A DNA stretch of 64,000 bases from Pseudomonadota bacterium (GTDB lineage: Bacteria > Pseudomonadota > Alphaproteobacteria > Sphingomonadales > Sphingomonadaceae). Positions 28,381 to 46,567 of the stretch are shown one piece after another. Position numbers and translations under genes: made by a program. The notes under the pieces were generated by a model, which was given only the letters and a program-made list of their open reading frames with translations, had not been told where the DNA came from and did no database searches. Location of the stretch: contig JAFECL010000007.1 in the NCBI GenBank assembly GCA_018242165.1, forward strand, positions 18,904-82,903. The letters run 5' to 3'. Position 1 is the first letter of the stretch, and every line of letters begins with the position of its first letter.

Positions 28381-28427
28381 CCAAGTCGCTTGGCTTGGGC
28401 TTAAACGCCGCCTAGTATCAGGTGGCC

Positions 28428-30410: not shown

Positions 30411-31166
30411 CTATCCGGTAAGAGAAAAGTGGCCAATAACAGACAATCGCTTGCGAAGTAAGCTTATCGCCCCCTTGTGGATTTGCGAAATCCGGCCCTT
30501 GCTGAGACCGCGCAGCTTAGCGATCTCCTCGAAAGCGACACCTTCAAGATAGTGCAGACGGATGACCGATTGCTCTGCCTCAGGCAAGGTCGCCAGGGTT
30601 TCGAGGAGATGGTTCAGCGCTTGACGCCAGGCCGCTGTTTCATAGCTGGATCGCCCCGGCTCTATTGGTTCACGCTGTGACTGCGCCGCGTCGTCCAGCA
30701 TCAGGCCGAGAGCCAGCTCAGCGACAATGTCGCCAATCTGACTGAGCATACCCGCCAGATCGCCGCCGGACGCCTTTTGGCTCAGAGAGCGCACCCGTTC
30801 GCGCTCGATCCGCCGTCGCGTGGCAATCTGTTGGCTCGCATCGCTCGACCGCGCGATTCCATCCAGAATCGCACCCGTGATGCGGCGAGTGGAGTAGTAA
30901 CGGAACGGCACCCCCAACTCGGGGCGATATTGGTCAATTGCCTCGAGCAAGCCAACATGCGCCAATTGGTCGATATCGCGGGCGTCGATTGGCGCGGAAG
31001 CGTAATCTCGTCGCAAGCGCCAGGCAATGCGCCGCGCGACGGGCAGGTATCGGGAGAACAGTTGCTCGCGCGCGGAGCGGCTTTGTTGCTGCTTGCACTC
31101 GTGCCACAGTGCGATCTCGTCGGGCGACATTACGGAATCGCGCGGGCCGGAAGCTCCCCCGAGCAT
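30411..31166 (-). CDS. fliA: RNA polymerase sigma factor for flagellar genes (sigma-28)
   Basis: A 251-residue sigma-70-family protein with FliA-type regions 2 (SRYLPVARRIAWRLRRDY, DIDQLAHVGLLEAIDQYRPE, PFRYYSTRRITGAILDGIA), 3, and 4 (LPEAEQSVIRLHYLEGVAFEEIAKLRGLSKGRISQIHKGA). It would direct late flagellar genes such as filament and motor genes, none of which are in this window. The ATG at 31166 overlaps the fliP stop (TGATG), so its synthesis is coupled to the export-gate genes rather than separately promoted. No flgM is seen nearby. Confidence 0.94.
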   Translation of the reverse strand: MLGGASGPRDSVMSPDEIALWHECKQQQSRSAREQLFSRYLPVARRIAWRLRRDYASAPIDARDIDQLAHVGLLEAIDQYRPELGVPFRYYSTRRITGAILDGIARSSDASQQIATRRRIERERVRSLSQKASGGDLAGMLSQIGDIVAELALGLMLDDAAQSQREPIEPGRSSYETAAWRQALNHLLETLATLPEAEQSVIRLHYLEGVAFEEIAKLRGLSKGRISQIHKGAISLLRKRLSVIGHFSLTG

Positions 31167-31894
31167 CAGTGGAAGCTTCCAACCAGCCCCTCCAGGATCA
31201 GGGCCCAGCCGTCGATCAGGACGAACATCAGGATCTTGAGCGGGAGGGAAATGGTCGCCGGAGGCACCATCAACATGCCCAGCGAGAGCAGAATCGACGA
31301 TACGACCAGGTCGATCAGCAGGAACGGCAGCAGCACGACAAAGCCAATCGTAAAGGCCACCCGCAATTCGTTGAACATAAAGGCGGGGGTCAACTGCATC
31401 AGGCCCACCTCTGCGGCGCTATGGGGTAACGGCTTGCGGGCAATGGCGTAAACCGCCTTCAGGTCGCGATCCGCCACCTGGCGCAGCATGAAGGTCTTGA
31501 GCGGCTGGCTGCCCTGATCGACCGCCTGTTCGATCGAACTTTGCCCGCTCAGGAAGGGCATCAGCCCGCGCCCCGCCACCTGCTCCAGCGTGTTGCCCAT
31601 GGTCAGCCCGGTGAGGAACAGTGCAAGGGTGGCAATGGCGATATTCGGCGGCGTTTCCGGCATGCCAATGGCGTGCCGGATCATCGACAGGACCACGACG
31701 ATGCGCAGGAACGCCGTCATGCACACCACCAGGGCCGGCAACAGGGCAAGCAACCCGATGATCAGCGAGGTTCTGACCAGCGAGGCGGAGTCCGCGTTGA
31801 GCGCGCTGGATGGCGCCGTCGTCGCCCACGCCGCAGGCGGCGCCATCAGCGCCAGGATCGTCGCCCTGCGCAGCCAGGGTCTGGCGCCAGCCAT
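31166..31894 (-). CDS. fliP: Flagellar export-gate protein FliP
   Basis: Core membrane protein of the type III export gate. At 242 residues it has a cleavable N-terminal signal-like segment (ILALMAPPAAWA) and the FliP signature FLRIVVVLSMIRHAIGMPETPPN, then LTPAFMFNELRVAFTIGF and a C-terminal helix pair. The ATG at 31894 gives the usual N-terminus. The fliO frame upstream does not stop before this start but overlaps it out of frame for hundreds of bases, which is unusual. FliP stop overlaps the fliA start. Confidence 0.94.
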   Translation of the reverse strand: MAGARPWLRRATILALMAPPAAWATTAPSSALNADSASLVRTSLIIGLLALLPALVVCMTAFLRIVVVLSMIRHAIGMPETPPNIAIATLALFLTGLTMGNTLEQVAGRGLMPFLSGQSSIEQAVDQGSQPLKTFMLRQVADRDLKAVYAIARKPLPHSAAEVGLMQLTPAFMFNELRVAFTIGFVVLLPFLLIDLVVSSILLSLGMLMVPPATISLPLKILMFVLIDGWALILEGLVGSFH

Positions 31895-32264
31895 TCCCGA
31901 CCTCGCTTGGCGGCTCTCCTGACGGCACCGCGACCAGGCATGCAGCCTGGCCCGAGACCAGCGCGGCATAGGTCCGCCCGTCGATTTCAACCAGACTCAG
32001 TCCACGTTGCGGACCCAACGCAAGGTGCTCGATCAGACGCAAGCGGCGGTCGGTCGTCAGGGCAGACGGAAACAGCCGGCCACCTTTCAGCCGGGTGCGC
32101 AACAGCAGAATCGCACCCACGCCCAAGGCGAGGCATGTCACCAGAGCGAACAGCAGGCGCCAGATCGGCACGGCCGGATCGGTGCCGCTGGCCAGCACCG
32201 ATCCGGTCTGGGTGGCTTGCGTCGCCATGTCCGCGACAAGCAGGGCAATGGCCACGCCGCTCAC
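31419..32264 (-). CDS. fliO: FliO-like export protein with an extended frame overlapping fliP
   Basis: The N-terminal ~120 residues look like FliO: one membrane helix (PIWRLLFALVTCLALGVGAILLL) and a small cytoplasmic domain (LRLIEHLALGPQRGLSLVEIDGRTYAALVSG). The GTG at 32264 overlaps the fliN stop. The frame does not end there but continues to 31419, overlapping fliP by 476 nt in another phase, and this extension looks like out-of-frame fliP sequence rather than protein. Either FliO truly has a long tail, or a sequencing error or frameshift removed its stop near 31900. Confidence applies to the FliO part. Confidence 0.6.
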   Translation of the reverse strand: MSGVAIALLVADMATQATQTGSVLASGTDPAVPIWRLLFALVTCLALGVGAILLLRTRLKGGRLFPSALTTDRRLRLIEHLALGPQRGLSLVEIDGRTYAALVSGQAACLVAVPSGEPPSEVGNGWRQTLAAQGDDPGADGAACGVGDDGAIQRAQRGLRLAGQNLADHRVACPVAGPGGVHDGVPAHRRGPVDDPARHWHAGNAAEYRHCHPCTVPHRADHGQHAGAGGGARADALPERAKFDRTGGRSGQPAAQDLHAAPGGGSRPEGGLRHCPQAVTP

Positions 32265-32572
32265 TCCTCGCGGGCGAAGACATCGGTGATGCGCAGGCCC
32301 AGCTGGTCACCCACCGCCACGATCTCGCCACGGGCCACGGTTGCCTCGTTGAAGATCAGCTCGACCTGTCCGTTCAGCGGCGTGTCCAGCGTAACAATGG
32401 CCCCCTGCTTCATGCCCGCCAGATCGGCCAGGGTCATCCGTCCTCGCCCCAGCCGGGCCTCAAGCTCAAGCTCCACCCCGCCGAACAACTTTGGATCCAG
32501 CAGCGCGCCTTGCCGATCCAATACTGGCGCGGCACCGGAACCTTCGGTCCGGCCATTACCCTTCCCCGTCAC
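32261..32572 (-). CDS. fliN: Flagellar motor switch protein FliN
   Basis: A 103-residue SpoA-domain protein: VELELEARLGRGRMTLADLA, GAIVTLDTPLNGQVELIFN and ARGEIVAVGDQLGLRITDVF form the C-ring fold. It overlaps the preceding fliM-like gene (ATGA) and fliO (GTGA). FliN builds the base of the C-ring together with FliM and binds FliH during export. Confidence 0.92.
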   Translation of the reverse strand: MTGKGNGRTEGSGAAPVLDRQGALLDPKLFGGVELELEARLGRGRMTLADLAGMKQGAIVTLDTPLNGQVELIFNEATVARGEIVAVGDQLGLRITDVFAREE

Positions 32573-33357
32573 GCTTTCCCCCGTTGGAATTGCAAGGCGA
32601 GTTGATCCCCGCCGAGCGCCAGCCGCGCCCGACCGAGCATCGCGCCACCCGGCACCGTAATCAGTTCGACGCTATCCGGCGCATCGTGGTCGAGCACCAG
32701 AACATCGCCCACCGCCAAATCCGCCAACTCCGCAGCACTCAGGCGCACCATACCGAGCTTGGCCGCGAAATCGGCCTGGCTGCCACCAGCCAGACAGGCC
32801 AATGACACTGCCTGCGGGGCCCGCAGCTTCTGAACCGGGCAGAGCTGCTTGCGCAGCGCCGTCGCGGCTGCCCGGCCAATCCACAGGGTCAGGTTCGCGC
32901 CGCGCGCCGCACCGGCCTGGGCCAAGGGCAAGTCGGCCACCACCCGGGGGGTGCCCGATTGCGCCGCGCGAACCTGCAAAGCACAACCGATCCCTGAAGC
33001 GTCGCGATCAGCCGCCGCCACGGGAAGGCACTGCATAACCCCCTCACGCAGGTCGCCGATCAGATGGGCAAAAAAACGATCAAGCAGCTGATCATCGCCA
33101 TCATGGCCTGGCGGCAATGCACCCGACAGCCCCAGGGCCTGGCCCAGCAGGCTCTGCCGCGCCGGCTCCGCCGCAACCGACACTACCGAACCAGCGGTGG
33201 CGGGCTTGGGTGCAACAATCCAGGGCGTACGATGGACGCATCGGTGCGCGCCGAACCAGCGTTCAGCCCAGCCTTCGATCGCCTGGTCTAAGGCTGCCGC
33301 AACCTTGTCGTCCGTCAGCGCACGGTCAGGAATCCAGTCTAGAACCGTTTCGGTCAC
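32569..33357 (-). CDS. fliM: Reduced FliM/SctQ-like switch protein
   Basis: A 262-residue protein in the fliM position. Only the C-terminal ~80 residues match a SpoA domain (SQADFAAKLGMVRLSAAELADLAVGDVLVL, split here in reading; ends LGGDQLALQFQRG). The usual FliM N-terminal CheY-binding helix (EIDALL type) is absent, and the CheC-like middle domain with its GGXG signature cannot be recognised. FliM is normally ~330 residues. The GTG at 33357 overlaps the flgE stop. It resembles injectisome SctQ-type proteins as much as FliM. The symbol is given by position. Confidence 0.7.
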   Translation of the reverse strand: MTETVLDWIPDRALTDDKVAAALDQAIEGWAERWFGAHRCVHRTPWIVAPKPATAGSVVSVAAEPARQSLLGQALGLSGALPPGHDGDDQLLDRFFAHLIGDLREGVMQCLPVAAADRDASGIGCALQVRAAQSGTPRVVADLPLAQAGAARGANLTLWIGRAAATALRKQLCPVQKLRAPQAVSLACLAGGSQADFAAKLGMVRLSAAELADLAVGDVLVLDHDAPDSVELITVPGGAMLGRARLALGGDQLALQFQRGKA

Positions 33358-34547
33358 CCCTGGCCCCGGATACCGAACAGTTGCTGGATCATGTCATTGG
33401 TCGCGCTGACTACCTGCGAGCTGGCCTGGAAGCCACGCTGAATCAGGATCAATTCGCCGAACTGCTCGGAAAGGTTGGTGTTCGACGCTTCGAGCTGCTT
33501 GGACAGCAGCTGCCCGACCCCTTCGGTTTGACTGGCAACCACGCGCGTCGGCCCGTTGCCATCGTTGACGAACAGGCCGCCGCTGACCCGGCGCAGCTGC
33601 TGCGGATCGCGGAAATCGGCCAGTGCCACCGCGCCCAGCGTCTGGGTCTGCGAATTGCTGTAGTTCAGCACCACGTGGCCCTGCGCATCGATCGTCACCG
33701 TGGTCAGCGCGCCAACCGCGTTGCCGTCGACCGACGAGGTGCGCAGCGTCGAGGTGGTGCCAGCGGAGAACGAGGTGACCCCGCTGGAAAAATCGAGCAC
33801 CACGCTGAGCGGATCGGCGCCGCTCGGACTGGAATTGATGGTGAGCGTCTGGGTTGTCGGGTCAACAGTGCTGCCGCTGAACTTCAGTGTCGATGTACCC
33901 ACTGTGGCTCCGGTGTCATCGGTGACCGTCACACCCCAGTCCGAGGCGCTGCCCGACACCTTGTCGAACTTGATCGTCCAGGTATGCTTGCCACCCATCG
34001 AATCATAGACCGCAACATCGGCGATGCTGTCGGTCGTCGCGGTGGACGAAAGATTGTCGGCGAATTTGATGGTGGTGGTCGGCGTGGGCTTGCTGGTGCG
34101 CTGGGCATCGATGTTCAGCGCCACCGCCTTGCCGCTGCCGTCGAGCACCGCCAGCCGCGACTGCGTGTCGCTTTGCAGCGAGATATAGCCATCCTTGTCG
34201 ACGGCGAACTGGCCGGTGCGGGTGTAATAGGTCTTCCCGTTGTTATTCAGCACCAGGAAGCCGCTGCCCTGGATCGCCAGATCGAGGTTCCCGCTGGTCT
34301 GGCGGAGATCGCCTTGCGCGAAGTCCACCCGGGTCGCATCGAACCGCACCCCGTTGCCCAGCGAGGCCGAGCCCTTGTTGTCGTAGAAAGTCAGCCCCCC
34401 GCCGCCATAGGTGAACACATCGCTGAACGTGGTGCTGGTCGCCTTGTAGCCCAGGGTGTTCAGGTTGGTGACGTTGTTACTGATCGTCTGCAGCCCGGCG
34501 CTGAACGCATTTAGCCCGCTAAGGCCGGTGAAAATTGCTCCGAGCAT
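33354..34547 (-). CDS. flgE: Flagellar hook protein FlgE
   Basis: A 397-residue hook subunit. The N-terminus MLGAIFTGLSGLNAFSAGLQ with the SNNVTNLNTLGYKA motif and the C-terminal coiled region (SNTNLSEQFGELILIQRGFQ) are typical of rod/hook axial proteins. The middle is Ser/Thr-rich hook body sequence. GAGGAGG lies 6 nt before the ATG. It follows flgD by 10 bp, the assembly order hook-cap then hook. Confidence 0.94.
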   Translation of the reverse strand: MLGAIFTGLSGLNAFSAGLQTISNNVTNLNTLGYKATSTTFSDVFTYGGGGLTFYDNKGSASLGNGVRFDATRVDFAQGDLRQTSGNLDLAIQGSGFLVLNNNGKTYYTRTGQFAVDKDGYISLQSDTQSRLAVLDGSGKAVALNIDAQRTSKPTPTTTIKFADNLSSTATTDSIADVAVYDSMGGKHTWTIKFDKVSGSASDWGVTVTDDTGATVGTSTLKFSGSTVDPTTQTLTINSSPSGADPLSVVLDFSSGVTSFSAGTTSTLRTSSVDGNAVGALTTVTIDAQGHVVLNYSNSQTQTLGAVALADFRDPQQLRRVSGGLFVNDGNGPTRVVASQTEGVGQLLSKQLEASNTNLSEQFGELILIQRGFQASSQVVSATNDMIQQLFGIRGQG

Positions 34548-34557
34548 CGGGTCCTCC

Positions 34558-34965
34558 TCAGCGTACTTGGGCGATGTTGGTGATCGACAGGTTGGCGATG
34601 GTCTGGCCCGCTGCCGTGCGGATCGTGATGGTCGGCTGGCCGGTGGTGAACGAGACCGACTGGACAGCGCCACTGATCGTCGCGCCTCCGGCATCGGTGA
34701 TATCCACCGTCTTGCCCAGCAGGGCCGTAGCCTGCATCGCCGATTGGGCCGAAAGCAGCGAGGTCATCTGATCGTTGAGCGACTGGGTCTGCTGAAGCTG
34801 CGAAAACTGCGCCAGCTGCGAGACGAACTGGGTGTTGTCGAGCGGCTTGAGCGGATCCTGATAGGTCAGCTGGGTGAGGATGATCTTGAGCAGCGACTGG
34901 AAGTCGAGCCCATAGGCGCTCTGCGCATTGGCGCTGGTTGCGGAAGAAACTGCCGAAGTCGCCAC
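34558..34965 (-). CDS. flgD: Hook-capping protein FlgD (short form)
   Basis: The FlgD signature LDFQSLLKIILTQLTYQDPL and the continuation LDNTQFVSQLAQFSQLQQTQ are unmistakable, followed by a small beta domain. At 135 residues it is much shorter than usual (~220); the Ig-like/tudor part is reduced. The GTG start at 34965 is chosen because a GGAGG lies 10 nt upstream, overlapping the end of the preceding gene. Confidence 0.9.
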   Translation of the reverse strand: MATSAVSSATSANAQSAYGLDFQSLLKIILTQLTYQDPLKPLDNTQFVSQLAQFSQLQQTQSLNDQMTSLLSAQSAMQATALLGKTVDITDAGGATISGAVQSVSFTTGQPTITIRTAAGQTIANLSITNIAQVR

Positions 34966-34969
34966 GCGT

Positions 34970-35686
34970 TCAATACCTCCCCGTAAACTGGGACGCGGAA
35001 CTTTTCGAAGTTCCGGCAATTAACAATTTTCTAACAATAACTTCCATGACTGTCACGCCATATTCAGTGGCCAGATCATGAACTGCCGCGGCAATCCGCT
35101 GATCGTCGCGATCAGGCAAAGCGGCGTCGATCTGGACTACCCAGCCAGGGCCCTGTCGCAGCAATCGCACTCTTGCCATCAACCGTGCGCGCAGCGCCGC
35201 GGCCAGCGCGATCGTCGGACCATGCGCGGCGCTGGTATCGACACCGTCCGGCTCGATCGAGGCTACCTGAATGTTCGCCGGATCAGCGTTGACCACGTCG
35301 CCGCTAGGACCCGAATCGTCTCGCCAGATGGCGGGACCCGTCGCGTCCCCTTCCTGCGCCGACTGCCGCGATGCGCCTTCCGGCTCCGGCCCGAACGGCG
35401 GGCCGAACTGTATCGATGGCTCTTCACCGACAGCAGCCGACCCATCCGCATCGGGCGCCGGTTCAGTTCGGCCTGATGATCGCATCCGGGGGCCGCTGCG
35501 ATCCGCTCCGCCAAAGTGCAGGCCAAGCAGGCCTGTCTCGTCAAAACCCAGCGCCCGGTCGGAGACAATCCGAGCGGCACTTGCCCCGCCTTCGAGCAAT
35601 TGGGCGAATTTTGCCCCGCCCGGCGGAACGCGCGCCGCGGACCGATGCCCTGGGTCGAGCGAAGGCGGGTGTGCGCCAACCTTCAT
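34970..35686 (-). CDS. fliK: FliK-like hook-length control protein
   Basis: A 238-residue protein with a long disordered Pro/Gly/Asp-rich N-terminal part and a compact C-terminal ~80 residues (LRARLMARVRLLRQGPGWVV onward) that could be the FliK switch domain. The order fliJ-this gene-flgD-flgE is where fliK is normally found. Sequence similarity to FliK is weak by eye, so position carries most of the weight. It is shorter than typical FliK (~400). Its ATG overlaps the fliJ stop. Confidence 0.65.
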   Translation of the reverse strand: MKVGAHPPSLDPGHRSAARVPPGGAKFAQLLEGGASAARIVSDRALGFDETGLLGLHFGGADRSGPRMRSSGRTEPAPDADGSAAVGEEPSIQFGPPFGPEPEGASRQSAQEGDATGPAIWRDDSGPSGDVVNADPANIQVASIEPDGVDTSAAHGPTIALAAALRARLMARVRLLRQGPGWVVQIDAALPDRDDQRIAAAVHDLATEYGVTVMEVIVRKLLIAGTSKSSASQFTGRY

Positions 35687-36135
35687 GGCCGGCCGCCTCC
35701 TACCTGCATTGCCTCCAACAGTTCATCGATCTGGCGCTCCTCGCGCTCCGCAATCAGGCGCCGCGCCACGTCGCGCTCAATCTGACGCGCGCAGCGCAGC
35801 TGGGCACCCGCCCGGGCATAACGCAGCTGGCAATCCGCCTCGCCGAGCCGCGCCCCAGCCAGATCAGTTTCCGCGCGCTTGAGTCCGTCGCTCGCCAGCA
35901 GCACCGAGGTCTGCCACATCGAAGTCAAGGCCGGATCGAACAGGGGCGCGAAAATTCCGGCTTCCCACGCCTCGACCTTGCCACGCAGCACGACTCCCGC
36001 CTCGTCGCGCAACGCCTCGGCCTGCAAGGTTGCCGCTGCCGCGCGCAACGCCGCTGCCTCAGCCTGCCACTCCGCCAGACCACTGAGTGCGGCAATCTGG
36101 CGCAGGGCCTCGCGACGCCGGGCGCGACGACTCAT
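35683..36135 (-). CDS. fliJ: FliJ-like export chaperone
   Basis: A 150-residue, highly charged, almost entirely coiled-coil protein (for example WQAEAAALRAAAATLQAEAL and RQIERDVARRLIAEREERQI), matching FliJ in size and position directly after fliI. FliJ inserts into the FliI hexamer and couples ATP hydrolysis to the export gate. Both ends overlap neighbours (ATGA). Confidence 0.8.
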   Translation of the reverse strand: MSRRARRREALRQIAALSGLAEWQAEAAALRAAAATLQAEALRDEAGVVLRGKVEAWEAGIFAPLFDPALTSMWQTSVLLASDGLKRAETDLAGARLGEADCQLRYARAGAQLRCARQIERDVARRLIAEREERQIDELLEAMQVGGGRP

Positions 36136-37448
36136 CGTCCCGCACCAAGCAGGGCCAAGGCAGCCTGCGTTGCCTCCGGGCGGATCGCTTCATCGGCGCC
36201 CTGCATCAGGAACCGGTCGATCGCGGGCTTGGCCGCGATGGCCTGATCCAGCGCCGGATTGCCCCCGGAGGTATAGAGCCCGGATTCAACCAGCAGCCGC
36301 GAGGTATCATAGTCTGCCAGCATGGTCCGCACCGCCCGCGCCTGCGCATGGTGTTCGGTGGACACCAGGCGATCGAAATTGCGACTGACCGACCGGGGAA
36401 CATCAATCGCCGGAAAGTGGCCGCGCTCGGCTAGTGCACGCGACAGGACAAGGTGCCCGTCGAGCAGCGATTTCATCAGCTCGGAAATCGGATCATCGAT
36501 TTCGTCGGTCTCGCTCAGCACCGTGAAAAGGGCGGTGATCGCGCCGCCATCGCGCAGCGCCCCGCACTGCTCCACAATGCGCGGCAGGGTGGCAAATGTG
36601 CTGGGCGGATAGGCCCGCACCGTGGGCGGTTCCCCGGCGTCAAGCCCGGTCTCGCGGATCGCCATGGCCAGCCGCGTCGCTGAATCGACGATCAGCAAAA
36701 CGTGCTGCCCCACCGCCCGCCAATGGCGCGCGAGGGCCAGTGCCTGATAGACCGCGCGCACTCGCAATGCCGCGGGCTGATCCGAGGTGGCCACAACCAT
36801 GGTGGTGTGCGCGCGCGCATCGGCATCCAATTCGCGCATCCACAGATGCTCAACCTCACGCCCGCGCTCGCCCACCAGGCACAGGATCGTGCAATCCGCC
36901 TCGGCCTGCCGGGCGATCTGCGTAATCAGGCTGGTCTTGCCAACGCCGCTGGCAGCGAAAATGCCAACCCGCTGCCCGCGCCCCACGGTCAACAGGCCGT
37001 CAATCGCTCGCAGCCCGGTATTCAGAGGCTCGGCGGGGGTAGTGCGTGCCAAGGGCGGCGGGGGATCGACGTGAACCGGTTCGTACCGGATCCCCGAAAT
37101 TGGGCCACCCTCGTCGATCGGCCGGCCCAAGGCATCCACCACCCGCCCCAGCGTCGCATCGCCGACCGGGCACTGGCCACCCCCGCCAAGCGCCCGAACC
37201 GGCATCCCGGTGGCAAGGCTCGCAACCTCACCATAGGGAGCAAGAGCGATATGGGCAGTATCGACCTTGATCACCTCGGCGATCAGCGCGGCACGCCCCG
37301 GCGCCTCGGGCCCGACCGAACAGAGGGTTCCGATCGCGACATTGGGGCCATCGGCCTCCAGCGCGCCGGGCAGGATGCGGGTCAGCCTGCCAGTACGGGC
37401 AATCGTGTCCGTGGCCGCAATGGCTTCGACCACCCCCGCTCTGTTCAT
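36132..37448 (-). CDS. fliI: Flagellum-specific export ATPase
   Basis: A 438-residue hexameric ATPase related to the F1 beta subunit. Walker A is GIFAASGVGKTSL, Walker B is VLLIVDSATRLAMAIRE, and other family segments are ALGRPIDEGGP, VGERGREVEHLW and GGAITALFTVLSETDEIDDP. It powers or primes flagellar type III export in the cytoplasm. It overlaps fliH upstream and fliJ downstream. Confidence 0.95.
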   Translation of the reverse strand: MNRAGVVEAIAATDTIARTGRLTRILPGALEADGPNVAIGTLCSVGPEAPGRAALIAEVIKVDTAHIALAPYGEVASLATGMPVRALGGGGQCPVGDATLGRVVDALGRPIDEGGPISGIRYEPVHVDPPPPLARTTPAEPLNTGLRAIDGLLTVGRGQRVGIFAASGVGKTSLITQIARQAEADCTILCLVGERGREVEHLWMRELDADARAHTTMVVATSDQPAALRVRAVYQALALARHWRAVGQHVLLIVDSATRLAMAIRETGLDAGEPPTVRAYPPSTFATLPRIVEQCGALRDGGAITALFTVLSETDEIDDPISELMKSLLDGHLVLSRALAERGHFPAIDVPRSVSRNFDRLVSTEHHAQARAVRTMLADYDTSRLLVESGLYTSGGNPALDQAIAAKPAIDRFLMQGADEAIRPEATQAALALLGAGR

Positions 37449-38152
37449 GCGCCTACCCCGGAGTCGGCAGCCTCATGGTTGGTCAGGAGTTCACGGAGCA
37501 CACCCCACTGCTGGTCCAGTCCGCATTCCATCGCGCCCAACGTCAGCCGCAATTCGCACGCCCCCTGGTCGAGATCGTCGCGCACCAGGATTGCCGCCCG
37601 CTCGATCCCGACTTCCGCCGCCAGCTGTGCGACTTCCCGGGTATCCGGAAAGTCGGCGCGCGCCACCTCGACCCGGATCACGGCCGCCCGCCCAAGTTCG
37701 GCACGTTGCCGGCGGATCAGGTCGGCCATGGCTTCGCGCCGGGCCTCGGCCGGGCCGAACAGCTTGTCGAGTGCGGCAATTGCAATGCTCAGGCCGGCCA
37801 TCTCGGCCCGTTCCCCGAATGCGATCAAGGCCTTTTCGGCGGCCAGCGCCATCGCCGCGAGCCGTTCGAGCGCCGCACTGCGGTCCTCCTCGTACTCCAT
37901 CTCAGCCGCCAGGCGACCTTGCTGCTCACCTTCGCGCCGCGCCGCTTCGACCGCCGTTTCAAGCTCGGCAAGGCGAGCTTCGGCCGCCTGCAGCCGGGCC
38001 AGCGCCTCACCCAGTGCATCCGGCTCTGCCGCCGGTATCGGCTCTGGCTCCCGCTCGCTGGCCGGCGCGCCATCGATCAGCGCAAGCGCGCCGGCCAGCG
38101 CGCTCAGGTCATGGTCATGCGGCAGCGATGCCGCTTTGATAAGCCGGGTCAT
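37445..38152 (-). CDS. fliH: FliH-like export ATPase stator
   Basis: A 235-residue protein with an Ala/Glu-rich coiled-coil centre (EALARLQAAEARLAELETAV) and a C-terminal domain (VRDDLDQGACELRLTLGAME) that resembles the V/F-ATPase stator-like part of FliH. It normally regulates FliI and docks it on FliN. The ATG at 38152 overlaps the upstream stop (ATGA); an in-frame ATG at 38176 is a weaker choice. Confidence 0.82.
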   Translation of the reverse strand: MTRLIKAASLPHDHDLSALAGALALIDGAPASEREPEPIPAAEPDALGEALARLQAAEARLAELETAVEAARREGEQQGRLAAEMEYEEDRSAALERLAAMALAAEKALIAFGERAEMAGLSIAIAALDKLFGPAEARREAMADLIRRQRAELGRAAVIRVEVARADFPDTREVAQLAAEVGIERAAILVRDDLDQGACELRLTLGAMECGLDQQWGVLRELLTNHEAADSGVGA

Positions 38153-38493
38153 TGCCCGATGCTCCGGCGCAGCCATGCCAGCACCCCCGGGCGCGGGGCA
38201 AGCTCTGCGGCATCGTGCTGGGGCACGCGAAGCTCGGCGGCACAGCGCTTGAGAACGGCGCGCGCATGATCCGTCATGGCGCCTTCCGCACCGCGTATCC
38301 GCCCCGCCAGCCAGGGTGAGAATGCCGCCTCATGGGCGGCCTCCGCGCGATCAGCGGCCAGACTCTCAACCCGGGCAAGCAATTTGCGCCGGTGTTCGTC
38401 GGGCAACAGGCGCAGAATCTGCTGCTGGTCAGCCTTGGCCAGCACGGCGAACCGCCGGAGCAGCTGGGGCAGATCCGCCTCAGGCCGGGCCAT
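38149..38493 (-). CDS. Unidentified 114-residue protein in the fliG position
   Basis: This gene lies between fliF and fliH, where fliG (~330 residues, torque ring) is expected. It encodes only 114 residues, basic and helical: FAVLAKADQQQILRLLPDEHRRKLLARVES, in two parts here, vaguely recalls FliG armadillo helices, but none of the FliG middle EHPQ or C-terminal charged torque-helix motifs is visible. It overlaps fliF by 14 nt and fliH by 4 nt, so it is a true operon member. It could be a minimal FliG substitute linking FliF to the reduced FliM, or an unrelated chaperone. Confidence 0.75.
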   Translation of the reverse strand: MARPEADLPQLLRRFAVLAKADQQQILRLLPDEHRRKLLARVESLAADRAEAAHEAAFSPWLAGRIRGAEGAMTDHARAVLKRCAAELRVPQHDAAELAPRPGVLAWLRRSIGQ

Positions 38494-39679
38494 CGCTCAC
38501 CTGATCATCGGCATCCAGCAGTTCGCGCAACCGGGCAGCAAAAGAAGCATGGTCCGGCGCCGCACGATCGCGCAGCCGCAGCATTGCCAACAGCAGGGCC
38601 GCCGCAACCAGCATCGCCGCCCCCACAGCCAGTGCGGCGGTCAGTGCCGCGGGCCAGGTCGCCTCGGCCCGCTCGGGCAAGGGAACGCGGGTTGCGCTGG
38701 CCACCGGTTGCCCGACCGCATAGGGCGCCCCGTCGGTGATCCGCCCGATGGTCAGGGCATCACCGCGCTGCTCGTCATAACCGATTGCCGGCCTCAATGC
38801 GGCGATGATCCGCTCTCGCAGGTCGTTCGCCGGCGGCGCTCCCAGGCTGATCGCAACGTGCAGGGGAAGGGCGCGCTTGCCCTCTGGGGCAGGCAATCGC
38901 CCGGCTGCACCGCCGGGATCAACCGTCACCACCACCCGAAGCGCCGGATCGGCAACCAGCCCGCTGATGGCGTTGCGCACCTGCTCCGCATAATAGGGCT
39001 CACCCGCGCCGGTCGAATCGCGCGGCGGCTGCGGCGCATCGGCGCTGAGCTGCCGCCCACTGCCATCCAGCACGACCACATTGGCCGCTTCAAGGTCATT
39101 GACCGCCGAGGCAACCAGACGCTGGATCCCGATTACCGTGCGTCCGTCGATCGCCGCACCGGGCTTGGGCGTGACGGTAACCGAGGCCTTGGCCGGCCGG
39201 TGGTCTTCCTGAAAGATCCCGGTTTCGGGCAGGGTAATGTGCACGCGGGCCGAATCCACATTGGCCATCGACATCAGGGTTCGCGCAAGTTCACCCTGCA
39301 ACGCGCGCTGATAATTGATCTTCTGGGCAAATTCGGTGAGCCCGATGTCGGATTTGCTGAACAGCTCGAAGCCGACCGTTCCCTTGAGCGGGAGATCGCC
39401 GCCCAGCACTGCCACCCGGGTGGCATCCACCACGTCGCGCGGCACGAGGATCGCGGTGCCGTTGTCAGCCAGTTCGTACGGCGTTTTTTGCCGTTTGAGC
39501 TCATCGACAATCAGTACCGCATCGCCCGGCTTGAGCGCGGTGAAGGCCGGCACCATTGGGGTTCGCACCACGAAGTACCACAGCAGCGAGAGCAGCAGGG
39601 CCACGGCCACGGTCGCACCCAGGATCAGCCCGATCTGGCGGGAGGCAAAGGGCAGGGCGGAATCCTGAGGGTCAGCCAT
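38480..39679 (-). CDS. fliF: Compact flagellar MS-ring protein FliF
   Basis: A FliF of about 400 residues, against 520-570 usually. Membrane helix 1 is near residues 18-40 (ILGATVAVALLLSLLWYFVV), followed by RBM1 and RBM2 (VDATRVAVLGGDLPLKG, then LARTLMSMANVDSARVHITLP, a FliF hallmark). RBM3 is present but lacks the long beta-collar insertion: ALRVVVTVDPGG is followed within ~60 residues by IGYDEQRGDALTI. Helix 2 (ALAVGAAMLVAAALLLAML) is followed by a short FliG-binding-like tail. ATG 39679 is used; GTG 39694 is in frame just after the fliE stop. Confidence 0.9.
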   Translation of the reverse strand: MADPQDSALPFASRQIGLILGATVAVALLLSLLWYFVVRTPMVPAFTALKPGDAVLIVDELKRQKTPYELADNGTAILVPRDVVDATRVAVLGGDLPLKGTVGFELFSKSDIGLTEFAQKINYQRALQGELARTLMSMANVDSARVHITLPETGIFQEDHRPAKASVTVTPKPGAAIDGRTVIGIQRLVASAVNDLEAANVVVLDGSGRQLSADAPQPPRDSTGAGEPYYAEQVRNAISGLVADPALRVVVTVDPGGAAGRLPAPEGKRALPLHVAISLGAPPANDLRERIIAALRPAIGYDEQRGDALTIGRITDGAPYAVGQPVASATRVPLPERAEATWPAALTAALAVGAAMLVAAALLLAMLRLRDRAAPDHASFAARLRELLDADDQVSDGPA

Positions 39680-39694
39680 CGGCCTGGGCGTCAC

Positions 39695-40787: not shown

Positions 40788-41909
40788 CTATTGGACAATG
40801 ATATCGGCATGAAGCGCGCCTGCCGCCTTCATCGCCTGCAGAATGTCGATCATGGTGCGGGTGGGCACCTGTTCGCGCGCCAGGCCCTGGGCCAGATCAG
40901 CCACGGTCGCCTCGGGAAAATGGACCACCGCGTTGCGATCCTCGGCCACATCGAGACGGGTGTTGGTGATCACCAGCCCGCTGGCGTCGTGGGTATAGCC
41001 GCCATAGATCCCGCTCTGCGTGGCGCTGCGATCGATCGAGACCGCGACCCGGATATCGCCCTGCGCGATCACCACGTCGGAAATTCGGACCTGCCCCCCG
41101 GCGACAATCGTGCCCGAGCGTTCGTTGACCACGATCCTCGCAACGCTGTCGGGCTGGACCGCCAGGTTTTCAATCCGGCTGAGCAGGCTGTTGAGCGACC
41201 CCGCCCAGCTGCGCGTGGTGATCCGCACCCGATCAGCCGACAGCACCGAGGCAACCGCGCCGCCAAGCTCGGCATTGACGCCCGCCGCCACCTTTTCAGC
41301 CGTGGTGTGGTCACCCTGGCGCAGCACGAAGGTGATCGCACCATCGCCATCGGCAAGGTCGGACGTAACCGGCCGTTCGACCGTGGCGCCGCCGGGCAGC
41401 ACGCCCGAGGTGGGGATATTCTTCTGCCGGACGTTCTGGTCGGCCTCGAACCGATAGCCGCTGACCACCAGCGTTCCCTGGGCCAGGGCATAAACCTGCT
41501 GGTCGGGGCCGAGCAGCGGAGTCATCAGCAGGGTGCCGCCGGCCAGGCTGCGCGCATCCCCCGCCGAGGCGACGTTGACATCGATCCGGTCACCCTTGCC
41601 CGCCGAAGGCGGCAGGCTGGCGGTGACCATCACCACCGCAACATTGCGGCTTTGCACCTGATCCGTGGTGACATTCATGCCCAGGCGCGCCAGCACGTTG
41701 CGCAGCGCCTGGCGGGTAACCTCGTTGCGGGCGGTATCGCCCGTGCCCGAGAGGCCGGTGACCACCCCATAGCCAACCAGCGGGTTTTCCCGCGCGCCCT
41801 GGAACCGGCCCAGATCCTTCAGCCGCACCTGCTCAGCCCCGGCCGGGGCCAGGCCGGCTAGCGCACTGGCGATGAGGGCCACGACCCAAAGGCGGATTCC
41901 CGCGATCAC
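40788..41909 (-). CDS. flgI: Flagellar P-ring protein FlgI
   Basis: A 373-residue periplasmic ring protein with a signal peptide (LWVVALIASALAGLAPAGAE). Family segments include LVGYGVVTGLSGTGD, VAVVMVTASLPP and a C-terminal LQAMKAAGALHADIIVQ. The length is normal. The GTG start overlaps the flgH stop (GTGA). Confidence 0.95.
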   Translation of the reverse strand: MIAGIRLWVVALIASALAGLAPAGAEQVRLKDLGRFQGARENPLVGYGVVTGLSGTGDTARNEVTRQALRNVLARLGMNVTTDQVQSRNVAVVMVTASLPPSAGKGDRIDVNVASAGDARSLAGGTLLMTPLLGPDQQVYALAQGTLVVSGYRFEADQNVRQKNIPTSGVLPGGATVERPVTSDLADGDGAITFVLRQGDHTTAEKVAAGVNAELGGAVASVLSADRVRITTRSWAGSLNSLLSRIENLAVQPDSVARIVVNERSGTIVAGGQVRISDVVIAQGDIRVAVSIDRSATQSGIYGGYTHDASGLVITNTRLDVAEDRNAVVHFPEATVADLAQGLAREQVPTRTMIDILQAMKAAGALHADIIVQ

Positions 41910-42505
41910 AGAATCCCCAGCAGGCTGAAGATCTGGGTCACCACACCGGGGAGAGCTCCACGGCTGGTAAAGCCCTTGCCATCGTATTCGATCCGGGCAT
42001 CAGCCAGGCGCGACGACAGCACCGCATTATCGGCGCTGATATCTTCCTGGCGCACCCGCCCGGTCACCTTGATATTGGTCTTCTCGCCGCTGATGTTCAG
42101 CATCTGCCAGCCCGACACGATCATGTCGCCGTTCGGCAGCACCTCGCCCACCGTCGCGCTGAGCTGCGCCGCCATCCGGTTGGCCCGGCCACTGGTGCCC
42201 TGGCCATCGTACTGCCCGGCGAAATCGACCCCGCCAGACCGCGCCAGATCGCTGCTGCCAGCCGATCGCGAGGCATTCAGCCCGGCGCCGGCGGTGGTCG
42301 ATTTCTTGGTGCCCTGGGTCACCGAATTCGACGCGGAATTGTTCGCCACCACCTGGATCGTCAGCAGATCGCCGACCCGCGAGGCCTTGCGATCCGACGC
42401 CATCGCCGGCCAGTTGCCACCCTTGTAGAGGTTGTCGGCCCGCGCCGGCCCGGCCAATGCCGATCCGATCAGCGCAAGTGCCGCCCAGCCCGAAGCCCGC
42501 ATCAT
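41906..42505 (-). CDS. flgH: Flagellar L-ring protein FlgH without lipobox
   Basis: A 199-residue L-ring subunit. The conserved core NGDMIVSGWQMLNISGEKTN and GRVRQEDISADNAVLSSRLA identify it. FlgH is normally a lipoprotein with a cysteine at +1. Here the export signal reads ALIGSALAGPARADN and no cysteine is present near the cleavage site, so it should be a soluble periplasmic precursor cut by signal peptidase I. Overlaps flgA and flgI. Confidence 0.92.
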   Translation of the reverse strand: MMRASGWAALALIGSALAGPARADNLYKGGNWPAMASDRKASRVGDLLTIQVVANNSASNSVTQGTKKSTTAGAGLNASRSAGSSDLARSGGVDFAGQYDGQGTSGRANRMAAQLSATVGEVLPNGDMIVSGWQMLNISGEKTNIKVTGRVRQEDISADNAVLSSRLADARIEYDGKGFTSRGALPGVVTQIFSLLGIL

Positions 42506-42987
42506 TGTCCGCCCCCCTGATAGAGCGCGGAGATCACCGAGCCATCACGTGCGCTCACGAACAGGTGCTGCCCCAGGCTGGCCTCGCCCAGCGCAAGCCC
42601 GCCCCGGCGGATGATGACCGGCCCCGCGCTGACCTGAACAACCACCGCCGTGCCGCGATGGATCGGCCCGCCACCGGCGATTGCCACCGGCTGCATCGCC
42701 GCCACCGGGCGGCGCACCACAACCACCCCGCCCTGCCGCTCAGCCGGCAGCCAGGCCGCCAGTGCGGGCAGGCGCGCGCGCGCCTGCGCCGCCAGAAAGG
42801 CCCGCGGGATCGTGGCAGTTGCCGCATCCCGCCGAACCCGGGCGAGCTCAAGCCGTGCGGCAGCATCACGCAGCGACGGGGGCAGCGCCGCCACATCGGC
42901 CACATCGCCCAGCCGGATCACCTCGGCCCGGGTGCGAACCTCATCCGCCAGCATCAGTCCGGCAGCCAGAACCAACACCAGCGCCAT
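42502..42987 (-). CDS. flgA: P-ring assembly chaperone FlgA
   Basis: A 161-residue exported protein (signal MALVLVLAAGLMLADE) with a SAF-like C-terminal domain (VAIAGGGPIHRGTAVVVQVS, SARDGSVISALYQ). It is shorter than the usual FlgA (~220), lacking part of the N-terminal domain. Position beside flgH and flgI supports its role in P-ring assembly. Overlaps flgG and flgH starts and stops. Confidence 0.85.
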   Translation of the reverse strand: MALVLVLAAGLMLADEVRTRAEVIRLGDVADVAALPPSLRDAAARLELARVRRDAATATIPRAFLAAQARARLPALAAWLPAERQGGVVVVRRPVAAMQPVAIAGGGPIHRGTAVVVQVSAGPVIIRRGGLALGEASLGQHLFVSARDGSVISALYQGGGQ

Positions 42988-43760
42988 CAGCGGCGCAGCC
43001 CGTTGGCAATGGCCATCAGCTGATCGCCTGCCTGCACCACCTGGGCATTGGCGCCATAGGCGCGCTGGGCCAGCAGCAGCCCGACCATTTCGGTCGACAG
43101 GTCAACGTTCGATGCCTCGAGCGAGCCCTGGAGCAGCACGCCCTTGTTACCATCGCCGGGAACGAAGCTCTGCACCGCCGCGCCTTCCGGCAGGCGGAAA
43201 TACCCACCCTCAACCGGAACCAGCCGAGTAACATCATCGGGCATGGCGACGTCGAGCTGGCCCAGGTCCGCATAGGCGGTATTGCCCGGCACCAGTGCGC
43301 GCACCCGCCCGTCACGCTCGACCCTGAGATCGGTCGCGTCCTGCGGCACGCTGATCTGGGTCTTGAGCGACAGGCCATCGGCCGTCTGCAACTGACCATC
43401 GGCGCCGATCTTCAGGGTGCCGCCACGCCACAGGTAGGTCTGCCCGCCGGGGCCCAGCACTTCGAGAAAACCGTCGCCGCTGATCGCGAGATCATAGGGG
43501 CGGTTGGTCTGGCGCAGATCGCCCTGGGCAAAAACCCGCCCGATCGTGGCCACCGTGACCCCCGAGGCAAGATCCGAGGCGGGCAGGGCGACGGGCGCGA
43601 CATCGTTCGCGACAGCGGGCGTGGCGACCAGTTCGGCGAACCGCATTTCGGCGCGCTTGTAGGCATTCGTGTTGAGGTTGGCGACATTCTGCGCGACCAG
43701 TTCAAGGCCGCGCTGCTGGGTCTCCAGCCCGGTTGCCCCGATGTAGAAAACACCATTCAT
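42987..43760 (-). CDS. flgG: Flagellar distal rod protein FlgG
   Basis: A 257-residue axial protein with IGATGLETQQRGLELVAQNV, NLNTNAYKRAEM, the FAQGDLRQTNRPYDLAISGD segment and a C-terminal EASNVDLSTEMVGLLLAQRA. The length equals typical FlgG (260). It overlaps flgF by 4 nt. Confidence 0.92.
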   Translation of the reverse strand: MNGVFYIGATGLETQQRGLELVAQNVANLNTNAYKRAEMRFAELVATPAVANDVAPVALPASDLASGVTVATIGRVFAQGDLRQTNRPYDLAISGDGFLEVLGPGGQTYLWRGGTLKIGADGQLQTADGLSLKTQISVPQDATDLRVERDGRVRALVPGNTAYADLGQLDVAMPDDVTRLVPVEGGYFRLPEGAAVQSFVPGDGNKGVLLQGSLEASNVDLSTEMVGLLLAQRAYGANAQVVQAGDQLMAIANGLRR

Positions 43761-44464
43761 CGCACCGACTCCCCAAACGCGGTAATCGCCCGGCCAAGGG
43801 CATCGTCGTAACCAAGCATCACCCGCTGCCCCGCCTCGGCCTGGCGCAGTGCCTGCATCAGCTGCACCATCTCGTGGCCGGTGGAGACATTCGAGGCTTC
43901 GTAAGCGCCCTGGACCAGGTGAACCTCGGCCACCGGATGCAGACCGGCGCCTGCATCGACGAAGGCATTGCCGGCAACGCCAAGGCCCTGCGGCAGGGCC
44001 GCCTCCATCACCGCGATCCGCCCGGCCGGCTGGCCAGCGGCAATGATGGTGCCGTCGGGCCGCACCGAAAAATCGGGATCGTTGACGACCACGTCGCCAC
44101 CGCCCGCCAGCTGCAGAACCCCGCCAGCGGCATCGACCAACCGCCCATCGCCCCGCCGGTTGAAGCGCCCCGCCCGCGTATAGCGCAGGCCATCTTCCTG
44201 CCGGACGACGAACAGCCCTCCGCCCGTCAGCGCAAGGTCATAGGGGTTGCCGGTCTGCACCAGTTTGCCGGGGGTGAGATCGGGCACTTCGCCAACCGCA
44301 GGGCCGGCCGCCGCCCCGCTGACATCGGCCGTTACAGCGACGACAAAGGGTACGCGGCGCTTGTAGGCGGGAAGGTTAACATTGGCGATATTGCGCGCTG
44401 CAATTTCGGCCCGAGACTGGGCCTGCGCCAGAATGCGCGTAACGCTCTCAACCAAGTCGGCCAC
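43757..44464 (-). CDS. flgF: Flagellar proximal/distal rod protein FlgF
   Basis: A 235-residue axial protein (ARNIANVNLPAYKRRVPFVV, VQTGNPYDLALTGGGLFVVR, YEASNVSTGHEMVQLMQALR). It is slightly short for FlgF. The GTG start lies in the 3' arm of a predicted hairpin with a G-rich loop that may serve as the ribosome site. It is preceded by the only sizeable gap inside the operon, 75 bp after flhA. Confidence 0.88.
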   Translation of the reverse strand: MADLVESVTRILAQAQSRAEIAARNIANVNLPAYKRRVPFVVAVTADVSGAAAGPAVGEVPDLTPGKLVQTGNPYDLALTGGGLFVVRQEDGLRYTRAGRFNRRGDGRLVDAAGGVLQLAGGGDVVVNDPDFSVRPDGTIIAAGQPAGRIAVMEAALPQGLGVAGNAFVDAGAGLHPVAEVHLVQGAYEASNVSTGHEMVQLMQALRQAEAGQRVMLGYDDALGRAITAFGESVR

Positions 44465-44539: not shown

Positions 44540-46567
44540 TCAATCGACGCGGAGCACGTCAAACGAATTGAGATCGATCGAGGTCGGTACTTCGTTGACC
44601 GAGACAATCGCCAGACGCGGGGCGCTGCGGCGCAGGAAAGCACGCAGATGGCGGCGTACTGCCGGACCACACAACAAGACCGGGGCCAGACCGGCCTGGA
44701 GCATAGCATCGACCATGGGGATCACCTTGCGGATCAGCGATTCGGCCAGGCGCGGCTCGATCACCAGGGCGGCGGCGCCATCGGCACGCGCCACCGCCTC
44801 GGTGATCTGGGCTTCGATCCGGGGGTCCAGGCTAAGCACCGCAAGCTGCTCGTGCCGCCCCTTGAGGTCGCTGCAGATCACATGGCTCAGCCGGCGACGG
44901 ACCAGTTCGACCAGTTCGCTATGATCGCGCGTTGTCCGTCCGACATCGACCAGAATGTCGCAGATCAGATCGATGGGCCGGATCGAAACTTCCTCGTCGA
45001 GCAGGCACTGCAACACCCGCTGGATATCGGAGACGGACAGGACGTTCGGCACCAGCTCCTCGATCAGCCCCGGCTGGCGCGACCGCACACCCTCCAGCAG
45101 GCTGGTGACATCGTTGCGCGCCAGCAGCATCGCCGCCTCCGAACGCACAATCTCGCCCAGGTGGGTCATCAGCACGGTAATCGGATCGACCAGCGTATAG
45201 CCAAGATCGCGGGCCCGATCCTTCTGCTGATCCTCAACCCAGTGCCCGGGCAGCCCAAAGGCCGGATCGCGCACCTCCTCACCCTCGAGGCCCTCGCGCG
45301 CAGCGGCCGAACGGATCGCCAGGGTCTGGTCGGGCCGGATCATCCCCCGGCCATAGGCGCTGCCATGCAGGGCGATCTCGTAGGCGAAAGCGCCCAGGCC
45401 CTCACCATCCTCGATCACCACCGGCGGAACGACAAAGCCGGTTTGGTCCGCCCGTTGCCTGCGCAATGCGGCGATCCGCTCGGCCAGCACGGGCCTGAGC
45501 GGCAACCAGGCCCGTGCGAGATCAGCGCCCAACGCCACGCTGATCGCCCCGGTGGCCCTGCGTTCGACCTCCTGACTGGGAGCGGTGGAGGCATCTTTGG
45601 CCGTTGCCCCGCTTTCGCCTTCGCGCCGCCGCATCCCGAACCACACCGTCGCCAGCAGGCCCAGCAGGATGACAATCGGCCACTTCGGCATCCCCGGCAG
45701 CAGTAGCAACAGCAGCAGCGCGGTCATCACGATCAGCGGGATCTTCGGCACCGAGCCGAGCTGGGCAACCACCTCGGTGCTCAGCTCCCGGTCCGCAGCC
45801 GAACGGGTGACGATGATCCCGGTGGCGATCGAGATGACCAGCGCCGGCACCTGGGTGACGATGCCATCGCCGATGGTCAGCAGGGTGTACTGCTGCAGGG
45901 CCTCGGACCAGTCGAGCCCGCGCTGCGAAATCCCGACGATCCAGCCCGCGATGATATTGATCAGCACGATGATGATGCCAGCAATGGCATCACCCTTCAC
46001 GAATTTCGAGGCGCCATCCATCGCCCCGTAGAAGGCCGCCTCGCGCTCCAAGGTGCGCCGCCGGGCCTTGGCCTCGTCCTGATCGATAAGCCCCATGTTG
46101 AGATCGGCATCGATGCTCATCTGCTGGCCCGGCACCGCATCGAGGGTAAAGCGCGCCGCCACTTCAGAAACCCGCTGCGCGCCTGCGGTGACCACCACGT
46201 ATTGCACCACGATCAGGATGAAGAATACCACCAGCCCGATCACGAAATTGCCCTGGATGGCGAAGGAACCAACCGCACCGATCACCTTGCCGGCATCGCC
46301 CTGGGTGAGGATCAGTCGCGTTGCCGCGACGTTGAGCGAAAGGCGGAACAGGGTGGCGACGAGCAGCAGCGAGGGGAAGGTCGAAAACTCGACCGGCTTG
46401 CGCACATAGAAGGTGAGCATCAGCATGGTGAGCCCGAACGACACGTTCAGGATGATCAGGAAATCGAGCAGGGCGGTCGGGATCGGCGCGAACAGCACCA
46501 ACAGAATCCCGACCATGCCCGCCACCAAGGCCAGGTCGGCATTGTTCTTCAGCAGGCGGCGCAGCAT
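44540..46567 (-). CDS. flhA: Flagellar export-gate protein FlhA
   Basis: A 675-residue nonameric export-gate protein. The N-terminal half has eight predicted helices with the family signature VRKPVEFSTFPSLLLVATLF and the conserved FHIPEP-type loop (QQMSIDADLNMGLIDQDEAK). The C-terminal cytoplasmic domain follows after ~residue 330. The ATG at 46567 overlaps the flhB stop (TGATG). It is the last gene before the 75-bp gap. Confidence 0.95.
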   Translation of the reverse strand: MLRRLLKNNADLALVAGMVGILLVLFAPIPTALLDFLIILNVSFGLTMLMLTFYVRKPVEFSTFPSLLLVATLFRLSLNVAATRLILTQGDAGKVIGAVGSFAIQGNFVIGLVVFFILIVVQYVVVTAGAQRVSEVAARFTLDAVPGQQMSIDADLNMGLIDQDEAKARRRTLEREAAFYGAMDGASKFVKGDAIAGIIIVLINIIAGWIVGISQRGLDWSEALQQYTLLTIGDGIVTQVPALVISIATGIIVTRSAADRELSTEVVAQLGSVPKIPLIVMTALLLLLLLPGMPKWPIVILLGLLATVWFGMRRREGESGATAKDASTAPSQEVERRATGAISVALGADLARAWLPLRPVLAERIAALRRQRADQTGFVVPPVVIEDGEGLGAFAYEIALHGSAYGRGMIRPDQTLAIRSAAAREGLEGEEVRDPAFGLPGHWVEDQQKDRARDLGYTLVDPITVLMTHLGEIVRSEAAMLLARNDVTSLLEGVRSRQPGLIEELVPNVLSVSDIQRVLQCLLDEEVSIRPIDLICDILVDVGRTTRDHSELVELVRRRLSHVICSDLKGRHEQLAVLSLDPRIEAQITEAVARADGAAALVIEPRLAESLIRKVIPMVDAMLQAGLAPVLLCGPAVRRHLRAFLRRSAPRLAIVSVNEVPTSIDLNSFDVLRVD

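Follow-up and report, generated by a model that had tools for sequence, protein, structure and literature searches.

What use a cell might have for 'half a motor' has been asked in print (PMC12199754), and Zhang et al. (2012) report one RNase encoded in Firmicutes flagellar operons and ask whether the flagellum delivers it (PMC3482391). For teneurin-like toxins, which are related to the giant RHS-repeat proteins discussed here, another study leaves the mode of delivery unsettled because no machinery for it is obvious (PMC13018210). Here we analyse a window of 64,000 nucleotides from a Sphingomonadaceae bacterium (GCA_018242165.1, contig JAFECL010000007.1, forward-strand positions 18,904 to 82,903; coordinates below count from the first letter of this whole stretch), which carries a flagellar gene cluster on its minus strand (29793-49985) with a 114-residue open reading frame (ORF), hereafter X, between fliF and fliH in the place of fliG. 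Our favoured reading, to which we assign a probability of roughly 0.55, is that the cluster encodes a flagellum-derived, non-rotary exporter of giant polymorphic toxins in which X would be a severely reduced, stator-blind FliG-like adapter. A broader version, for which we put the odds a little short of even, is that of a third kind of type III machine beside the rotary flagellum and the injectisome: a flagellum that shed its motor when FliG shrank to a stator-blind stub and that now serves only to pass giant RHS toxins out along its rod, rings and hook, with plasmids among its carriers and a distribution over more than one class of Proteobacteria. In the literature searched, which does not take in most subscription journals or bioRxiv, we found no account of a flagellar cluster that lacks FliG and is accompanied by RHS proteins. 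If true, 'half a motor' would have a use, a delivery route for giant RHS-repeat proteins would be supplied, and one could see how the loss of part of a single protein might convert a rotary machine into one for secretion.

As we picture it, the machine would consist of an MS ring with export gate and ATPase, a rod with P and L rings, and a hook with its cap, and would lack a FliG, a stator and a filament of its own. X would bridge the short FliF ring, at its cytoplasmic tail, and the FliM-like/FliN part, holding the export platform, and this clamp would let FliH-FliI feed FlhA; without FliG_C and stators, nothing would rotate. The TPR proteins of the cluster may serve as chaperones, and a giant, almost cysteine-free RHS/YD-repeat protein would exit via rod and hook, taking a toxin domain to neighbouring cells; its conserved N-terminus and variable C-terminus suggest a polymorphic toxin directed against other bacteria. 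The sequences themselves show the gene content, the conserved slot, a single FlhA clade, the lack of FliG, MotB and flagellin matches in the one genome whose only FlhA is that of the cluster, and co-occurrence with the giant gene; that X descends from FliG, what it binds and that the giants leave through this machine are inferences.

Compared with FliG, X has the same place between fliF and fliH, a weak co-linear profile match of its betaproteobacterial copies and candidate partners in the FliF tail and the FliM-like protein, but it is about a third as long (114 versus 338 residues), lacks FliG_C and reaches no Pfam FliG domain. The flagellar hook-basal body and export apparatus are represented by family matches to FlhA, FlhB, FliP, FliQ, FliR, FliF, FliE, FlgB, FlgC, FlgF, FlgG, FlgH, FlgI, FlgE, FlgD and FliI; the cluster differs from them in that no FliG, stator, filament or hook-associated protein (HAP) gene was seen in it, in its short FliF and in the separate clade of its FlhA. 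With the injectisome it would share non-rotary export and an adapter replacing FliG, and injectisome models give its FlhB and FliI almost the same scores as flagellar ones do; unlike the injectisome, it keeps a flagellar rod, P and L rings and a hook, and its FlhA (732 bits versus 558 for SctV), FliP, FliQ and FliR are closer to the flagellar models. There is no secretin SctC among the named cluster genes, and the genome was not searched for SctC. The giant proteins resemble other RHS/YD-repeat polymorphic toxins in their RHS repeats and LysM domain (seen in the two giants scanned whole), in a toxin family at three of eight C-termini and in a small ORF behind some of them, and they differ in their size, in their common N-terminus and in occurring only with the cluster among the 84 genomes searched.

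An open reading frame in the place of fliG

38149..38493, minus strand: X, FliG-like adapter candidate; 114-residue ORF in a conserved slot, without a family match of its own, whose relatives give a profile match to FliG

X reads from ATG to TGA on the minus strand. The 3' end of fliF shares 14 bp with it, and fliH most likely starts at 38152 (ATGA, a 4-bp overlap with X) in preference to an upstream ATG at 38176; the relatives start alike. The original prediction, made from the letters of the window alone, had a small ORF overlapping both neighbours where fliG would be expected, and this is what is present. Its statement that fliG is missing is borne out for the 29793-49985 cluster, as is the presence of export, rod, hook and ring genes, which have family matches except that FliJ, FliK, FliO and FlgA are assigned by position or relatives and FliH by one weak match. 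It had also called X basic and helical: this copy does have an isoelectric point (pI) of 10.6, but the trait is not conserved (pI 4.7-11.6 across 25 copies) and was rejected as a defining one, while the helical character agrees with a structure model that is itself of low confidence (predicted local distance difference test, pLDDT, 65).

An ORF occupies the X slot in all 25 loci examined, a count that leaves out the Variovorax plasmid, and it usually overlaps the fliF stop. Because the slot is filled in 25/25 loci from two bacterial classes, X is more than a chance reading frame. At one locus (L113) the slot precedes fliI, since fliH is displaced there. Alphaproteobacterial copies have 110-138 residues and the others 151-206; an N-terminal helical module is common to the copies, and six relatives are 24-36% identical to the window's X. 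Searches of Pfam, NCBIfam and PADLOC with X gave no chaperone or other credible family, matches to ASXH (0.02) and IPP isomerase (0.06) being discounted. Searched on its own against 148 relatives, X returned itself and five chance-level matches and missed the orthologues in genomes G055 and G033, for which reason FliF was used as the anchor for finding relatives.

A relationship to FliG is suggested by profile comparison. With hhalign, the profile of 18 betaproteobacterial copies aligned X 5-147 on FliG 6-180 (probability 31%, P 5e-4), a match that none of 100 shuffled decoys equalled, and FliG ranked first of 22 profiles (31.9), the best of the 21 cluster families being FliF (19.4). The comparison left out decoy families with fewer than five members, and no SctK profile was among the 22. 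By domain, FliG_N scored 26.8, FliG_M 19.39 and FliG_C, the worst, 15.8. The profile of all 25 copies was led by FliG_N (24.7) and FliG (24.6), with FliF at 18.3. Shuffled decoys scored 20.3 and 16.0 at best. The alignment begins at the first residues of both proteins, and that of the 18 copies spans FliG_N and FliG_M. For FliG_C there was no match of X in Pfam or NCBIfam, nor of six relatives in Pfam, and the motif EHPQ, which we take to be characteristic of FliG, is absent from the window's X. Foldseek gave 19 matches to the X model, none significant; the top one, at E 1.6, is to a chain in 4fq0, the FliG-FliM complex of H. pylori, presumably the FliG chain, and the list also holds the FliG entries 3hjl and 5tdy, which we take as a hint only. 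A sequence search of the PDB with the X profile placed designed proteins on top, with MgtE at E 1.1, and was rejected as evidence.

Several of these figures count against a FliG ancestry. The match lies in the twilight zone and is carried by FliG_N; FliG_M alone (19.39) is matched by the strongest decoy family, FliF (19.42), and falls below both FliF and FliQ when all 25 copies are used. No Pfam FliG domain was reached at cut-off, the nearest being FliG_N on one relative (E 0.065), and the hhalign probability against full-length FliG is 9% for all 25 copies and 3% for the seven alphaproteobacterial ones. These seven, the window's included, score 21.8 with FliE versus 21.5 with FliG, and their profile was outscored by one of 100 shuffled decoys. 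Because the alphaproteobacterial match is not distinguishable from one to FliE, the window's X is linked to FliG only via its relatives.

X could instead be unrelated to FliG, a small helical adapter with the part that SctK plays in the injectisome, leading from the MS ring to a FliM/FliN sorting platform. The weak sequence signal (hhalign probability at most 31%, FliG_M at decoy level) fits such an adapter, as do the all-helical model, which is of low confidence and matched no known structure significantly, and the seemingly motorless system, like that of injectisomes. Against it, FliG was the best of the 22 profiles (among which SctK was not represented) for both the betaproteobacterial and the joint X profile, and the match is co-linear from the N-terminus and found in the fliG place; we hold this alternative to be possible but doubtful. 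A reduced FliG is the best-supported identity of X, and the simplest reading of the alignments would be a FliG cut down to its FliF-facing, perhaps also FliM-facing, part. The 'minimal FliG substitute' of the original prediction is supported in so far as the fliG place is kept and the betaproteobacterial profile matches, but with no FliG_C no torque role can be claimed. The profile comparison that it proposed placed FliG first for the betaproteobacterial copies, but the window's subgroup alone does not single out FliG, and the structure prediction gave no significant match. Its other suggestion, of a differently built switch, may be right in that the machine probably has no switch at all.

Giant RHS proteins in cluster-bearing genomes

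Giant ORFs lie near the cluster in Sphingomonas formosensis, Brevundimonas intermedia, Paucimonas lemoignei, a Burkholderiaceae metagenome-assembled genome (MAG) and three plasmids. These seven share an N-terminus (MVA-x-x-x-G-x-x-LG), are 3,665-12,948 residues long and contain one to six cysteines. Overall, the giants range from about 3,200 to 12,948 residues; among the nine measured, one is cut by a contig end (G154) and one has seven cysteines (G149). A C-G-x-x-G motif before a hydrophobic stretch holds a cysteine in seven of the nine. On the Undibacterium plasmid pUYM01 (L142, 784-39630), a single gene of 12,948 codons stands beside the FliG-less cluster.

The distribution of the giants was followed with a profile of their first 110 residues, and controls were chosen by us among genomes without a cluster-type FliF. 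In the first set of genomes the N-terminus was found in 10 of 11 that carry the cluster and in none of 37 controls, and among newly found Burkholderiales in 9 of 12 against none of 24, which makes 19/23 against 0/61 over the 84 genomes searched. Four of the 19 positive genomes had helped to build the profile; without the profile-building genomes the counts are 15/19 and 0/61 (Fisher p 6e-13, a value that is too small, since the genomes are related). Four of the 12 new genomes have two to four matches each: G211 (C1:1174993 and 1189164), G232, G434 and G176. In five cluster genomes of the first set, giant and cluster are on different contigs, and in one of them, G149, the giant lies about 80 kb from the nearer contig end with the cluster on another contig, so the two are not neighbours.

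Both giants that were scanned whole have RHS_repeat matches (about 1e-82) and LysM. A toxin family exceeded its cut-off at three of eight C-termini:

S. formosensis giant, C-terminus: Col-Pyo_DNase, 8.8e-27
P. lemoignei giant, C-terminus: CDI_toxin_EC869_like, 7.6e-48
Novosphingobium giant, C-terminus: Tox-REase-7, 2e-15

Tox-REase-5 at the C-terminus of the Asticcacaulis giant stayed below its cut-off. Small ORFs follow close behind some giants, as immunity genes would.

A different system might export the giants, whose genes would then just accompany the cluster. RHS toxins are known to use type VI and other routes (PMC13018210, PMC3482391), and with a giant near the cluster in many genomes the two could simply be co-inherited. 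Against this stand the absence of the giant N-terminus from all 61 controls and the case of G149, which has both without their being neighbours; moreover, no secretion signal is evident by eye in the common N-terminus, on which no predictor was run. We consider a separate export route unlikely.

FliG, stators and flagellin elsewhere in the genomes

The window's genome has an ordinary flagellar operon as well. On contig C113 it encodes a FliG of 338 residues with FliG_N, FliG_M and FliG_C, together with fliE, a fliF frame of 553 residues, fliH (by position) and fliI, and a flagellin gene lies near. FliG is absent from the second flagellar system and present in the organism. Of the two findings that the original prediction had named as telling against it, a fliG elsewhere in the genome and a known chaperone as the match of X, only the first turned up. 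The genome also has one MotB match and three Flagellin_N matches, one of the latter beside the ordinary operon. Across the 23 cluster-bearing genomes, FliG_C was found once in 18, twice in one and not at all in four (G148, G154, G155 and G543), and no FliG copy lies within 600 kb of the cluster on the same contig. G148 and G154 are MAGs with two FlhA, in which the lack of FliG may be a gap, and G543 has a single FliF above threshold. G155 is S. formosensis, with a genome of 6.9 Mb whose single FlhA lies inside the cluster and in which no FliG_C, MotB_plug or Flagellin_N match was found; as sequenced, its machine seems to be without FliG, stator and flagellin. MotB_plug and Flagellin_N were each found in 9 of the 11 cluster genomes searched, both being absent from S. 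formosensis and G154; these counts do not extend to the 12 new Burkholderiales, and MotA, FliD and FlgK were not searched for.

These distributions bear on the possibility that X is a true minimal FliG of a second, rotating flagellum supplied with MotAB and flagellin by the ordinary one in the cell. FliG outside the cluster in 19 of 23 cluster genomes, the MotB and flagellin-family matches in 9 of 11, and the retention of L and P rings, hook and hook cap all suit a rotating machine. However, the stator-facing FliG_C is missing from X, S. formosensis has the cluster without a FliG, MotB or flagellin match, and the giant genes would be left unexplained. The FliM-like protein, inspected by eye, also has no recognisable counterpart of what we take to be the CheY-binding N-terminus of FliM. 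Although motility is attributed to Flavisphingomonas, the genus that now holds S. formosensis (PMC12210278), we judge a rotating second flagellum to be distinctly improbable.

A non-rotary exporter of giant toxins remains the reading that we prefer, and a number of observations tell against it. The reported motility conflicts with the lack of FliG, MotB and flagellin matches in S. formosensis, and this conflict stands. In most other genomes, the window's included, X could work with the MotAB and FliG of the ordinary flagellum. The window's own genome (83.6% complete, in 115 contigs) yielded no match to the giant N-terminus, and frames of at least 900 residues in the window hold only ordinary peptidases; the N-terminus is likewise missing from the cluster genomes G180, G492 and G229. 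Except in G149, a giant and a cluster on separate contigs could still be close together: some giants sit near a contig end (G033). Five of the eight giant C-termini have no toxin family above cut-off, and four show none, while FlhB and FliI score about equally with injectisome and flagellar models. Our confidence in an exporter is tempered because FliG_M is at decoy level and because only one genome proves giant and cluster to be unlinked.

Gene content and spread of the cluster

By our count the cluster comprises 27 genes, from a TPR gene at 49985 to a TPR gene ending at 29793; 25 of them were used to label relatives, and flgD and the fliO-like frame were added to reach 27. Beside X they are as follows.

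29793..30404, minus strand: TPR protein; relatives in 8/10 loci; weak SctY chaperone match
30411..31166, minus strand: FliA-like sigma factor; family match
31166..31990, minus strand: fliP; TIGR01103, 7.8e-66
31992..32264, minus strand: fliO-like, by position; no credible family match; frame continues into fliP
32261..32572, minus strand: fliN; FliMN_C, 3e-18
32569..33357, minus strand: fliM-like, 262 residues; FliMN_C, 3.8e-6
33354..34547, minus strand: flgE, hook protein; family match; ORF listed to 34694, start re-assigned
34558..35019, minus strand: flgD, hook cap; PF03963, 3e-19; start uncertain
34970..35686, minus strand: fliK-like, by position; no credible family match; relatives in the same place
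35683..36135, minus strand: fliJ-like, by position; no family match; relatives in the same place
36132..37448, minus strand: fliI, export ATPase; family match
37445..38152, minus strand: fliH-like; weak HrpE/YscL match, E 2e-4; no Pfam match; relatives start alike
38480..39694, minus strand: fliF, short MS-ring protein, 404 residues; YscJ_FliF 8.7e-54, YscJ_FliF_C only 0.086; TIGR00206
39695..40006, minus strand: fliE; TIGR00205
40003..40428, minus strand: flgC; TIGR01395
40431..40775, minus strand: flgB; TIGR01396, below its cut-off
40788..41909, minus strand: flgI, P ring; family match
41906..42505, minus strand: flgH, L ring; PF02107, 1.5e-41
42502..42987, minus strand: flgA-like, by position; no Pfam match; relatives in the same place, annotated FlgA in L112 and L113
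42987..43760, minus strand: flgG, rod; family match
43757..44464, minus strand: flgF, rod; family match
44540..46570, minus strand: flhA; TIGR01398, 732 bits (cut-off 772) versus SctV 558; placed by tree
46567..47634, minus strand: flhB; TIGR00328, 278 bits versus SctU 272, both below cut-off
47638..48399, minus strand: fliR; family match
48406..48672, minus strand: fliQ; family match
48669..49985, minus strand: TPR-repeat protein; relatives in 6/10 loci

Rod, hook and P and L rings are all encoded, as shown by family matches, and several cluster proteins score under the curated cut-offs of their families. Neither the named cluster genes nor the 20 flanking ORFs scanned, which are mostly housekeeping genes, include a filament, HAP or stator gene. 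A model of the FliM-like protein (pLDDT 64) aligns over about its full length with Salmonella C-ring chains at E 1e-6, with a TM-score of only 0.2-0.3.

Gene order is the same in the 10 loci fetched, save for parts cut off or not recognised: two from Novosphingobium, one each from Asticcacaulis (with no FliQ-FlhA part found in its stretch), an alphaproteobacterial MAG, B. intermedia and S. formosensis, and four from Burkholderiales including P. lemoignei. The same order is annotated on Burkholderia ubonensis and Undibacterium plasmids, and a Variovorax plasmid has a matching FliF, a cluster-type FlhA and a giant gene. In a tree of FlhA the 13 cluster members form one clade across classes (100/100), apart from eight other flagellar FlhA, one of which, on a long branch, comes from the cluster-bearing G153; no injectisome SctV was included. 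Among 399 Burkholderiales genomes, 14 (12 of them new) have a cluster-type FliF with 344-535 bits and frames of 470-523 residues, set apart from ordinary FliF at 268 bits or less; G254 (249 bits, 458-residue frame) may be a further member and was left out of all counts. These sequence comparisons set the cluster apart as a system of its own, found in Alphaproteobacteria and Burkholderiales. Six relatives of the same genus (G006, G024, G028, G031, G056 and G069) have a different second flagellar system; five of them have two FliG, G028 has a single one, and each of the six encodes a FliG no more than 3 kb from the FliF of that system.

The shortness and variability of X (24-36% identity with six relatives) and the lack of a giant gene seen in the window's genome could also point to a second flagellum in decay, with X as a functionless remnant. 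Such decay is hard to reconcile with open frames, gene order and tight overlaps kept in two classes and one clade, with a sigma factor (9/10 loci) and TPR genes (8/10 and 6/10) that travel with the cluster, or with its presence on plasmids, and we regard it as highly improbable.

Some further observations concern the plasmids and the borders of the cluster. The B. ubonensis plasmid pMSMB2035 (L112), which carries the cluster and a giant gene, is typed as conjugative, and on the Undibacterium plasmid pUYM01 the annotation splits flgI in two, and fliH is inverted and out of its usual place. In the window, a right-handed beta-helix protein with a start that by eye resembles a signal peptide adjoins the cluster (28422-29378); it was dismissed as a partner of the cluster, as it was not found in 13 related stretches. 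Just past the other end, an IS200-like transposase domain (50874-51575) may mark the arrival of the cluster.
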